From contig JAKSTR010000010.1 in NCBI GenBank assembly GCA_024402495.1, positions 1 through 48,320 of the forward strand: a stretch of 48,320 nucleotides of DNA, in the 5' to 3' direction. Positions 41,437 to 48,320 of the stretch are shown here, in pieces. The DNA is from Treponemataceae bacterium. GTDB lineage: Bacteria > Spirochaetota > Spirochaetia > Treponematales > Treponemataceae. Position 1 is the first letter of the stretch. Every line of letters begins with the position of its first letter. The translations under genes were made by a program, and so were the position numbers. The notes under the pieces are model-generated. The model made no database searches. It had not been told where the DNA came from and was given only the letters and a program-made list of their open reading frames with translations.

Positions 41437-41717
41437 TGGTTTTTATAAACCGGTTTCCTTTCTTTTTGCCGTAACTTGCACAAATTTGAAAACTATAAAA
41501 AGTTGAAGATTAGAAATAATAAAGATTTAAATTAGAGATTTTAGAAGTTTTTATGCGAATAAACGCAATAAACGCCGATAACTTTCTAATACTTGACAAG
41601 AAAACGTAATAACTGCAAAATATTCAAATATCTACACTTCGTTGCGGTATTTTTAACCTTTGCAAACAATTTGCATTTTTACCGCTTCCTTTACTATTGT
41701 TTTACAAGGAGATTTTT
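41437..41717 (+). promoter_or_regulatory. Leader region of the HTH-EIIA gene
   Basis: TTGACA (41593-41598) and CAAAAT (41616-41621) are 17 bp apart. The leader then contains a nested inverted repeat: GCGGTA (41644-41649)/TACCGC (41680-41685) around TGCAAA (41661-41666)/TTTGCA (41670-41675). The AAGGAG site before GTG 41718 follows. Nothing else is seen in the gap. Confidence 0.5.
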
Positions 41718-42371
41718 GTGGAAGACGATATTCTTACCATTGAAGAAGTTGCAACATATTTAAGAGTTTCTGAACGCACCGTTTACGACTGGGCGCAGAA
41801 AGGTGAAATTCCTTCCGGTAAAATCGGTACCGTATGGCGGTTCAAGAAATCTGAAATTGAAAAATGGGTTGACGACCGGCTTTCGGCTGGTTCAAAACCG
41901 GCGCTGGTTTCTGACCAGATTCAGATTAAAAATATTCTTTCGCCAGACCGCATTGTTTTTTTGAATCATTCAACAAAACACGATGCTTTGGTTGCGCTGG
42001 CTGACAATTTGAGCACCGCGCCGCAGGTTAAAGCCAGCTACGAACTTTCCAAAGAAATTTTGAAGCGTGAAGAGCTTATGTCAACCGCAATGGGGCGCGG
42101 CATTGCAATTCCGCATGTGCGCCTTGCCTCTGTTACGGATCTGGTTATGTCTGTTGGCATCAGCAAGGTTGACATTATCGATTTTCAGGCAATTGACGAC
42201 CAGCCGGTACGCCTGCTTTTTATGATTGCTGCGGCACACAACCAGCACGCTTATTATTTGCAGACTTTGTCTTTTATCAGCAACCGGCTGAAAAACCCGG
42301 ATTTGCGCAATGCGCTGCTTAATGTAGAAGATCCGCTGGATGCCTACAATCTGCTGATTGCAGAAGACTGA
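41718..42371 (+). CDS. DNA-binding domain fused to PTS EIIA domain
   Basis: 217 aa from GTG 41718 (AAGGAG upstream). Residues ~1-55 are an excisionase/MerR-like helix-turn-helix (LTIEEVATYLRVSERTVYDW then GEIPSGKIGTVWRFKKSEIE). Residues ~70-217 are an EIIA fructose/Ntr-type domain with phosphoacceptor His133 in GIAIPHVRL. The arrangement suggests a transcription factor whose activity depends on phosphorylation state of the PTS. HTH-EIIA proteins occur in other spirochaetes. The gene has its own promoter. It is the second EIIA in the window after the one at 13746. Confidence 0.88.
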   Translation: MEDDILTIEEVATYLRVSERTVYDWAQKGEIPSGKIGTVWRFKKSEIEKWVDDRLSAGSKPALVSDQIQIKNILSPDRIVFLNHSTKHDALVALADNLSTAPQVKASYELSKEILKREELMSTAMGRGIAIPHVRLASVTDLVMSVGISKVDIIDFQAIDDQPVRLLFMIAAAHNQHAYYLQTLSFISNRLKNPDLRNALLNVEDPLDAYNLLIAED

Positions 42372-44672: not shown

Positions 44673-45332
44673 ATGGAAAAAGAAGCTCTTTCCCGTAATT
44701 ATTTGGAAACTTTAACGTCGGCAGACCTTGTTGCCCTGGCTGACGATTACGGAATTGACATACCTGAAGGCTTGAGCCGCCGTTTTATTATTGGCGAGCT
44801 TTTGGAAGCCATTGACGAAGCAGACGACAGCAGTTCTGCTGATTTACTGAACGACGATTCTGATTTTAAGGCAAATACGGTTTTGCCAAAATCTTATAAC
44901 GAAACCCAAATTACACTTTTGCTGCGCAACCCGGCATGGGCGTTTGTTTACTGGGACTTGAACGAAAGCGATTACCGCGAAGTTATCCAGACAAAGACGT
45001 TTACAACTTTTGTTCTGCGCGTTCTGTATTTTTCGCAGGCTGACGACGAAAAACCTGCTGAAGTTTACGATATTCCCGTTAAATATGAAGATTTAGACCG
45101 TTATATTTTGCTTTCTCAGGCAGAAAGTGCAGTGCGCATCGATTTTGTTGCAGAATTCAAAAATCAGGAACCGCGTGTTCTTGCAAAATCGCGCAAGGTA
45201 TTAATTCCAAAAGGATGCCCGGAAATTACATTTCAGTCGCTGACAGAAAAAATTGACCCGGTTTTGGAACTTTCTGGTTTTAACGAACTTTGCCGCACCC
45301 ATTATATGAATCACCGGCAGTCTTTTTCGTAA
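44673..45332 (+). CDS. DUF4912 domain protein
   Basis: 219 aa from ATG 44673, which is close to the predicted transcript start; longer in-frame starts lie inside the preceding gene. Residues ~1-50 resemble a SAP/Rho-N-like helical domain (LTSADLVALADDYGIDIPEG). Residues ~75-190 are a DUF4912 domain: LLRNPAWAFVYWDLNESD and VRIDFVAEFKNQEPRVLAKS, a beta-sandwich-like module often found near glycan-handling enzymes. Function unknown. It is probably co-transcribed with the GH57-like gene 54 bp downstream. No signal peptide. Confidence 0.8.
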   Translation: MEKEALSRNYLETLTSADLVALADDYGIDIPEGLSRRFIIGELLEAIDEADDSSSADLLNDDSDFKANTVLPKSYNETQITLLLRNPAWAFVYWDLNESDYREVIQTKTFTTFVLRVLYFSQADDEKPAEVYDIPVKYEDLDRYILLSQAESAVRIDFVAEFKNQEPRVLAKSRKVLIPKGCPEITFQSLTEKIDPVLELSGFNELCRTHYMNHRQSFS

Positions 45333-45386
45333 TTTTGCGCGAAACAGCTGCTTTTATAAAATAAATCTCAAAACAGAGAGAGAAAA

Positions 45387-46964
45387 ATGTCGAAAAAATC
45401 ATTAATTTTTTGTATTTCTGCGCATCAGCCTTACATTTGCCACAAGGAAGATGAATTTTTGCCGCAGAATGAACTGCTTTTTACTGCAATCAGCGAAACT
45501 TATTTGCCGCTGCTGAATATGTTTTCCAATCTGGAAGCAGACGGCGTTTCGTTCAAAATAATGATGTGTTTTTCGCCTTCTCTTTGTGCCCTTTTAAGCG
45601 ACCCGCAGATTCAAAGTCAGTATATTGAATGGCTGGATCGCGGCATTGCGCTGGGAGAAAAACAGGTTGCCTTATACGGCGACGATGATCCGCGTAAAGT
45701 TCTGGCGCAGAAACAGTTGGATTTATCAATTCAAAACCGCAGGGATTTTACTGAAACTTACCAGCAGGATTTGCTTTCTAAATTTTCCTATTATGCAAAA
45801 AAAGGAAACCTGGAACTTTTGGCAACGGCGGCTACAAACTGCTATTTGCCGATGTATGCCGATTTGCCGCAGGCTGTGCAGGCTCAGATTGAAGTCGGCT
45901 TAATTTCTCACCGCCATTATTTTGAATCAGCGCCGGAAGGTTTCTGGCTGCCTTACATGGGTTATGCTCCGGGGCTTGAATCGCTGATTCGCCCTTATGG
46001 TTTCCATTATACGATTCTGGATTCGCACGGGCTTCTGTTCGGTACGCCGGTGCCTGAAAACGGTATTTTTGGTCCGGCAAAATGTTTTAATGCACTTGCG
46101 GTTTTTGCCCGTGACAACGCTGCGGCGCCGGGTTTTGAAGATGATGTTGAAAAAATTGCGCTGAAAAGCGTTTACCGCGACCAGAACCGCGATATTGGTT
46201 TTGAAGAAAGCCTTGAAAACCTTGAAGGTTTCCTGAACAGCAAGAATGTCCGCCTTTCTACCGGCTACAAATACTGGTCGCAGGAAGAAGATTCTTTCTA
46301 TAAACCGGAAGAAGCTTTGGCAAGTTTGAAGGCTGATGCAAAAACTTTCCTTGATGAAAAGTCGAAAAAACTAAATCAGGCAAGCGAATTACTGAAAAAT
46401 AACGATGCTTTGTCGCTTTGCTGTTTTGATTCAAGCTTTTTTGGTCAGCAGTGGCACGAAGGCATTGCGTGGCTTGAAGAAATTTTCAGGCAGATTGCCA
46501 ACCGCGACGACATCGAAATGGGACACTGTTCGGAATTTATTCAGGATAAAACAAAATTGCCGCGCATTACGCCGTTTAATTCTGCCGGTGAGGGTACAGG
46601 TTACGCAGAAGATTTAATCGACCATTCCAACGACTGGATGATTCGCTATGTGCGCAAAGCCGTTGAGCGTATGGTGGATTTGACCCAGCGCTTCCCAACC
46701 GATACGGGCTTGAAAGAACGCTCGCTGAATCTTGCAGCAAAAGAAGTTCTGCTTGCGCAAAGCGGCGACTGGGCAAAAATGCTGAAGGAACAGGATTTCG
46801 GCGATTATGCTTCTGAACGTTTTAAGGAAAGTATCGGTGCATTTTCTACCGTTTACGATTCGCTGGGTTCAAATTCAATCAGCACGGAATGGCTTACGAA
46901 TATGGAAAGGAAGCACAGGATTTTCAGCTGGATAAACTACCGCGCTTTCAGTTCTAAAAGCTGA
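45387..46964 (+). CDS. GH57-like protein with a missing catalytic nucleophile
   Basis: 525 aa, of the GH57 alpha-glucan enzyme family (branching enzyme/DUF1957 type). The first conserved region HQPY (13-16), the acid/base region FDSSFFGQQWHEG (Asp348), and a long helical C-terminal part are present. In active GH57 enzymes the nucleophile Glu sits in WLPEC; here the segment is GFWLPYMGY, with Tyr190 in its place, and the acid/base region has lost other common residues (FDTELFG). This makes it a probable glucan-binding pseudoenzyme, or one with changed chemistry. It has no signal peptide. The ATG at 45387 has GAGAGAG upstream. Confidence 0.85.
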   Translation: MSKKSLIFCISAHQPYICHKEDEFLPQNELLFTAISETYLPLLNMFSNLEADGVSFKIMMCFSPSLCALLSDPQIQSQYIEWLDRGIALGEKQVALYGDDDPRKVLAQKQLDLSIQNRRDFTETYQQDLLSKFSYYAKKGNLELLATAATNCYLPMYADLPQAVQAQIEVGLISHRHYFESAPEGFWLPYMGYAPGLESLIRPYGFHYTILDSHGLLFGTPVPENGIFGPAKCFNALAVFARDNAAAPGFEDDVEKIALKSVYRDQNRDIGFEESLENLEGFLNSKNVRLSTGYKYWSQEEDSFYKPEEALASLKADAKTFLDEKSKKLNQASELLKNNDALSLCCFDSSFFGQQWHEGIAWLEEIFRQIANRDDIEMGHCSEFIQDKTKLPRITPFNSAGEGTGYAEDLIDHSNDWMIRYVRKAVERMVDLTQRFPTDTGLKERSLNLAAKEVLLAQSGDWAKMLKEQDFGDYASERFKESIGAFSTVYDSLGSNSISTEWLTNMERKHRIFSWINYRAFSSKS

Positions 46965-47057: not shown

Positions 47058-47456
47058 ATGAGTGATTTTTTTAACAAAATGAAAAATTATCTTGACCGTG
47101 GCGTTGAAGTTTCAAAAGATGCTCTGGTTAAGGCAGGCGAAAAGGTTCAGGATTTTGGCGACAAAAGCGTAAACCGCATCGAAATTTCCCAGCTTGAAGG
47201 TAAGGTGCAGAAAGAAATTTTGAAGCTTGGTAATTTTGCCTACGATTCTTTTGCGAAAGAAAACTGTGAAAATATTGCAGCTGAAAACGAAACCGTTCAG
47301 CAGATTTTAAAAGAAATTGCGTCGTTGAATGAAGAAATTGCGCAGAAAAAGGCTTTGCTGAAAGAAAAAGACGAACCTGAACAGGCTGAAAAATGTGAAG
47401 TTGCCGCAACAGAAGATGCTGCCGGCGGCGAAACAGCAGAAGGAACTGAAGAATAA
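47058..47456 (+). CDS. Small coiled-coil protein
   Basis: 132 aa from ATG 47058, preceded by GGGGG. An amphipathic N-terminal helical part (FFNKMKNYLDRGVEVSKDAL) and a predicted coiled coil (EIASLNEEIAQKKALLKEKD, ~80-105) are followed by an acidic Ala/Glu/Gly-rich tail. The N-terminus resembles that of small bacterial proteins with a helical lead-in followed by a zinc ribbon, but no Cys pairs are present. Function unknown. Monocistronic. Confidence 0.75.
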   Translation: MSDFFNKMKNYLDRGVEVSKDALVKAGEKVQDFGDKSVNRIEISQLEGKVQKEILKLGNFAYDSFAKENCENIAAENETVQQILKEIASLNEEIAQKKALLKEKDEPEQAEKCEVAATEDAAGGETAEGTEE

Positions 47457-47954: not shown

Positions 47955-48320
47955 ATCATGGAGAGTTTGATCCTGGCTCAGAACGAACGCTGGCGGCGCG
48001 TCTTAAGCATGCAAGTCGGACGGCAAGAAGGGAGCTTGCTCCCTTCCTAGAGTGGCGGACTGGTGAGTAACACGTGGGTGACATACCCCTGAGACCGGGA
48101 TAGCCTTTAGAAATAAGGGATAATACCGGATGAGACCGTAACCGTCAGAGGGTTACGAGGAAAGGAGCTGTGGCTCCGCTGAGGGAATGGCCCGCGGCCC
48201 ATTAGCTGGTTGGTAGGGTAACGGCTTACCAAGGCGATGATGGGTATCCGGCCTGAGAGGGTGAACGGACACATTGGGACTGAGATACGGCCCAGACTCC
48301 TACGGGAGGCAGCAGCTAAG
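47955..48320 (+). rRNA. rrs: 16S ribosomal RNA (5' part)
   Basis: The universal AGAGTTTGATCCTGGCTCAG begins at 47962, so the mature 5' end is ~47955. The helix around AACGAACGCTGGCGGCGCGT and the later GGCCCAGACTCCTACGGGAG are conserved landmarks. The gene runs off the window after about 366 bases. The variable V1/V2 parts look like Treponema. No tRNA lies upstream within the window. Confidence 0.97.

Follow-up and report, generated by a model that had tools for sequence, protein, structure and literature searches.

We analysed a window of 48,320 nucleotides (contig JAKSTR010000010.1 of assembly GCA_024402495.1, from a Treponemataceae bacterium) in which a gene for a 219-residue DUF4912 protein (44673-45332, forward strand) is followed by a gene for a GH57-like protein of 525 residues (45387-46964, forward strand). 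Both genes lie where a sequence-only reading of the window had placed them, and they share a frame across an intergenic stretch of 54 bases from the DUF4912 stop to the GH57-like start (45333-45386). The comparisons below lend good support to the view that the GH57-like protein is a pseudoenzyme, with the fold of a branching enzyme and a dismantled active site. Our preferred reading, to which we give about two chances in three, is that this pseudoenzyme acts as a non-catalytic scaffold that holds the DUF4912 protein in position, for a role in which glycogen is no longer required.

By fold and by sequence, the 525-residue protein belongs to the GH57 branching-enzyme family. It matched Glyco_hydro_57 (PF03065, 68 bits) and BE_C (PF09210, 109 bits) above the Pfam cut-offs, the latter as a helical domain at residues 423-521 (46653-46949, forward strand). 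Its closest solved relative was T. maritima AmyC (2b5d; E=1e-75 over residues 4-521 in a phmmer search of the PDB), and the GH57 part of the predicted model described below superposed on AmyC over 505 residues with a root-mean-square deviation of 1.9 Å, a Z score of 36.2 and 29% identity. Scores of 178 and 158 bits against NCBIfam NF041566 and NF041133 were under the equivalog cut-offs of 920 and 1000 bits, respectively, and an intact spirochaete GH57 enzyme also fell short of them (295 and 288 bits), so these two models cover only the Thermus and Thermococcales types.

In the phmmer alignment with AmyC, WLPYMGY was placed on WLAECGY and CCFDSSFFGQQW on APFDAELFGHWW. Tyr190 (codon 45954-45956, forward strand) occupies the position of the AmyC nucleophile E185, and Asp348 (codon 46428-46430, forward strand) that of the acid/base D349. 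Thus, the catalytic Glu that branching enzymes carry on strand β-4 in conserved sequence region 3 (CSR-3) is a Tyr here, and the proton-donor Asp on strand β-7 (CSR-4) is present, at a position that is free in the family. We then compared 17 cleft positions, most of them from the residue table of PMC6616209, with H146, E351 and H355 added from conserved motifs. Besides the nucleophile, 12 of the 17 were replaced (H10S, W29L, H146N, W246E, F261Q, E351S, H355Q, W356Q, W402G, W411L, S462G and F466K, in AmyC numbering), including the residue that serves as the polariser in AmyC, H10, while H12, R237, D349 and D463 were retained. The sequence-only reading had noted the exchange of the nucleophile for Tyr, and the loss proved larger than it claimed. 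Its description of Asp348 as a retained acid/base is correct in that the Asp is there, but misleading, as the position varies freely in relatives, and five further members of the genus have Glu at this site. A shifted Glu was considered as the nucleophile, an outcome that the same reading had named as contrary to it, and judging from the alignment no Glu within the β-4 motif appears to substitute for E185. The Glu eight residues further on (PGLE) was rejected as a replacement because active enzymes also have an Asp or Glu there. New acids conserved in the family were seen at AmyC positions 164 and 319.

Orthologues were searched for in 59 genomes of the same genus, family and order. The gene was found in 56 of them, including 43 of the 43 genomes that were at least 90% complete, and its reading frame was open in nearly all relatives. 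When 55 treponeme-order orthologues were aligned with AmyC, E185 was present in nine and E185 together with D349 in three, and none of the 55 had the full set of H10, H12, E185 and D349. The sequence-only reading had proposed to look for the same change in orthologues, and Tyr was found at the nucleophile position in all eight members of the genus and in 10 of the 32 Treponemataceae, with other residues elsewhere in that family (seven Ala, four His, three Glu, two Phe, two Asp, two Ser, one Asn and one Gln). The acid/base position in the same 32 proteins was also mixed, with Asp in 11, Glu in six, Pro in four, Ser, Asn and Arg in three each, and Tyr in two. Two sister families (f3 and f4) had a largely intact cleft, with E185 replaced by Gln (by His in two proteins) and H10 by Asn. 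Several other Spirochaetia families were intact; D349S was found in one (f12) and H10N in two (f8 and f13). Among other lineages, 80 of 80 loci drawn from a public genome collection (Thermotogota, Bacillota, Cyanobacteria, Campylobacterota, Elusimicrobiota, Omnitrophota, Myxococcota, Brachyspira and others) retained H10, H12, E185 and D349, although one of the two locus-search patterns included the ELFGHW motif and biased the loci from other phyla towards intact clefts; E185, D349 and H10 were in neither pattern. On a quick tree the changes fell on separate branches, and a repeated loss of catalysis is therefore probable. The E-to-Q families offer an intermediate state in a graded series that runs from intact enzyme, through E-to-Q with an intact cleft, to eroded pseudoenzyme.

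To compare constraint on the cleft with that on the rest of the protein, the mean entropy of the 17 cleft positions was set against that of positions whose conservation outside the order was 90% or more, using 20000 random draws. In Treponemataceae the cleft reached 2.40 bits compared to 1.19 for the background, and 0 of the 20000 draws were as high. The corresponding values were 0.24 and 0.43 bits in the E-to-Q group and 0.01 and 0.19 bits outside the order. In Treponemataceae, the cleft is freed from constraint while the remainder of the protein is held, and the statement of the sequence-only reading that the protein is not an enzyme is well supported by this pattern. In close pairs within the genus, the GH57-like gene had a ratio of non-synonymous to synonymous substitution rates (dN/dS, NG86) of 0.015-0.035, although some of these pairs had a high or saturated dS, and the ratio was similarly low for the DUF4912 gene. 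The GH57-like gene is thus under strong purifying selection.

The 219-residue protein is the product of the sole DUF4912 gene of the source genome and matched PF16258 with 72.4 bits (cut-off 29.4). Its gene and the GH57-like gene were neighbours at 53 of 55 treponeme-order loci and at 51 of 80 loci elsewhere, while the outer neighbours of the pair varied; a number of treponemes had an RluA-type pseudouridine synthase there, and f3 and f4 had other genes. Across 296 genomes of the phylum, the Treponematales and Spirochaetia genomes with DUF4912 were the ones that also have the GH57 gene; the small genomes of one family (f7) among those listed had neither, and Brachyspira-like genomes had both genes, but separated. 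A natural fusion of the two genes was not seen, as the long open frames at some loci were stop-to-stop artefacts, and 38 of 121 gene pairs were in the same frame, close to the one-third that chance alone would give.

The window pair was folded with AlphaFold as one read-through chain, using an alignment of 107 rows made up of pairs and single proteins. The joint model had a mean predicted local distance difference test (pLDDT) score of 89.6 and a predicted template modelling (pTM) score of 0.87, with linker residues 219-237 disordered. From the pTM formula we estimated that a freely placed 219-residue partner would give a value near 0.70, so the partner is firmly placed in the model. The GH57-like and DUF4912 proteins are thus predicted to form one rigid complex. 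A pair in which all catalytic residues were kept (L165) was likewise modelled as one unit, with a pTM of 0.90, which suggests that docking of DUF4912 on the GH57 enzyme is ancestral. Conserved adjacency and structure prediction together gave strong support to the pairing that had been proposed from sequence.

The core of the DUF4912 partner (residues 75-181; 44895-45215, forward strand) is predicted to be an FN3/Ig-like β sandwich, and model residues 78-179 gave a Z of about 9 to FN3-type domains with VIA-align. It is preceded by helices at residues 8-13, 16-25 and 36-52 of the model, which make up a putative Rho_N/SAP-like N-terminus (residues 8-52; 44694-44828, forward strand). The earlier description of this start as SAP-like was reasonable, since relatives, including several outside the spirochaetes, score as Rho_N there and three exceed the PF07498 cut-off at the equivalent place, but the window protein itself has no match. 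At the C-terminus, an RQSF tail (residues 215-218; 45315-45326, forward strand) was 92-100% conserved in 27 Treponemataceae members and 33-56% elsewhere. Many non-spirochaete DUF4912 members have an extra C-terminal β domain with a weak, sub-threshold resemblance to Glucodextran_B.

Next, the pair was placed in the setting of glycogen metabolism. The source genome encodes GlgA (540 bits), glycogen phosphorylase (708 bits) and GlgX (770 bits), and glycogen synthase was found in 39 of 40 spirochaete genomes (the source genome and 39 relatives). In the same 40 genomes, a GH13 branching enzyme as defined by TIGR01515 never exceeded the cut-off, and the branching-enzyme C-terminal domain PF02806 was found in none, with the control positive in 8 of 14. 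The best TIGR01515 scorer of the source genome, a GH13 protein of 746 residues, was considered as a branching enzyme and proved to be GlgX. An intact GH57 enzyme can fill the branching role elsewhere in spirochaetes, and among the Treponematales genomes examined nothing recognisable was found in that role. The genomes each carry a further GH57 gene, of the 4-alpha-glucanotransferase type, and in the source genome (L064, 1613-3514 on the reverse strand of contig C171) its nucleophile has been lost too; the nucleophile motif WLTERVW of the T. litoralis 4-alpha-glucanotransferase reads WLFTSAW in this protein. Some relatives still have the Glu, and several have lost it. The single-contig treponeme genome G026, of 1,139,633 bases, had no GT5 glycogen synthase and kept both genes of the pair; its GH57-like protein has E185, with Pro in place of D349 and Asn in place of H12. 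Catalytic residues have been lost, yet the gene is retained in near-complete relatives, even without glycogen synthase, and the job of the GH57-like protein is therefore probably non-enzymatic.

These observations can be brought together in a model in which the ancestral unit would have been a GH57 glycogen-branching enzyme with a docked Rho_N-DUF4912 partner. The catalysis of the enzyme would then have been lost in the treponeme order, several times over, and in Treponemataceae the glucan cleft would have gone as well, with the fold and the partnership retained. The GH57-like protein probably now serves as a scaffold or stabiliser of the DUF4912/Rho_N protein, and the complex would be the functional unit, with its output presumably through the DUF4912/Rho_N protein. 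Two points weigh against this model. The docking rests on a linked-chain prediction, which is liable to over-predict contact, and the treponeme genomes examined showed no other recognisable branching enzyme despite glgA, glgP and glgX, a gap that a hidden activity would conveniently fill. A wider proposal is more tentative, and we hold it at rather under an even chance, namely that a dead branching enzyme is the scaffold for Rho_N-DUF4912 in a core treponeme complex, that the role of this complex is glycogen-independent and possibly tied to nucleic acids via Rho_N, that it is kept even in T. pallidum, and that there are treponemes with glycogen synthase and no recognisable branching enzyme.

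The sequence-only reading had suggested glucan sensing, in which the dead enzyme would bind an alpha-glucan and signal via its DUF4912 partner. The glycogen genes of the source genome and the association of DUF4912 with branching enzymes are in keeping with a sensor, and the f3 and f4 proteins, which keep the whole cleft and have changed only E185 to Gln or His and H10 to Asn, look as expected of a lectin-like glucan binder. The window protein does not share this intact cleft, since most of its cleft aromatics and histidines are gone; W29, W246, F261, W356, W402, W411, H10, H146 and H355 are lost in the family, the cleft is more variable than the background in Treponemataceae, and the pair persists in G026 without glycogen synthase. 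A fair reading is that glucan sensing suits the E-to-Q relatives better than the window protein, for which we regard it as unlikely.

Less probable still, at somewhat below one chance in ten, is that the protein remains an enzyme with Tyr190, or an acid elsewhere, e.g. Glu251 (AmyC W246), as the nucleophile and Asp or Glu348 as the acid/base. Tyr serves as the nucleophile in sialidases, and within the genus Tyr190, an Asp or Glu at 348 and an Asp or Glu at AmyC position 246 were each found in eight of eight members; the searches also found no other branching enzyme. The same positions were unconstrained in neighbouring genera, and the residues around the catalytic pair (H10, H146, E351 and H355) have been replaced. 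Moreover, only 7 of 17 cleft positions were invariant in the genus compared to 101 of 137 background positions, and because so few cleft positions are invariant there, the Tyr in all eight members carries no special weight. That the gene is a functionless relic turning into a pseudogene, as the degraded active site and the second GH57 gene without its nucleophile might suggest, was rejected as very improbable on the low dN/dS, the open frame in nearly all relatives and presence in all near-complete ones, the retention in a 1.14 Mb genome and the high transcription of the T. pallidum orthologue (PMC8525777).

Other features of the window were recorded around the pair. Upstream, 41697-42371 encodes a protein that begins with an excisionase-like helix-turn-helix (NF047737, slightly below the cut-off) and continues into a fructose-PTS-IIA-like domain (TIGR00848, under the cut-off), and relatives of this protein lie upstream of the GH57-like/DUF4912 pair in several treponemes. 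Just 3′ of the pair, 47058-47456 encodes a Glu/Lys-rich protein of 132 residues that had no above-cut-off Pfam match, and a 16S rRNA gene starts at 47955-48320 and is cut by the window end (RF00177, 306 bits).

Among known systems, AmyC is a GH57 glycogen-branching enzyme whose hydrolytic activity is high, as was shown in 2019 (PMC6616209). The window protein has the same fold over its whole length, and differs in that the nucleophile, the polariser H10 and most cleft aromatics are replaced. In other phyla, the same DUF4912 domain (PF16258) is often found behind Rho_N and immediately upstream of an intact GH57 branching enzyme; the Spirochaetia members shown have no Glucodextran_B-like domain, and the GH57 partner here is, as far as its residues tell, dead. 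DUF4912 thereby gains a likely partner, the GH57 branching enzymes, in many phyla. In T. pallidum, TPANIC_0358 was named as GH57 and ranks in the top fifty genes by transcription (PMC8525777), and it was called an alpha-amylase in a modelling study (PMC5956850). The data presented here argue against alpha-amylase activity, and TPANIC_0358 and its relatives, despite their annotation as GH57 or alpha-amylase, are unlikely to be glycosidases. Near-complete treponeme genomes with glycogen synthase and no recognisable intact branching enzyme present a testable gap. A group of 60 "alpha-glucan branching enzyme-like" GH57 proteins without catalytic residues was counted, but not characterised further, by Martinovicova and Janecek in 2018 (PMC6037648), and the window protein falls under their definition, which is the substitution of one or both catalytic residues, through the change of E185 to Tyr. 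For these 60 sequences no partner, function or lineage was named, and Treponema is absent from the main text. Compared to the literature searched, the DUF4912 partnership, the stepwise decay and the missing branching enzyme appear to be new points.
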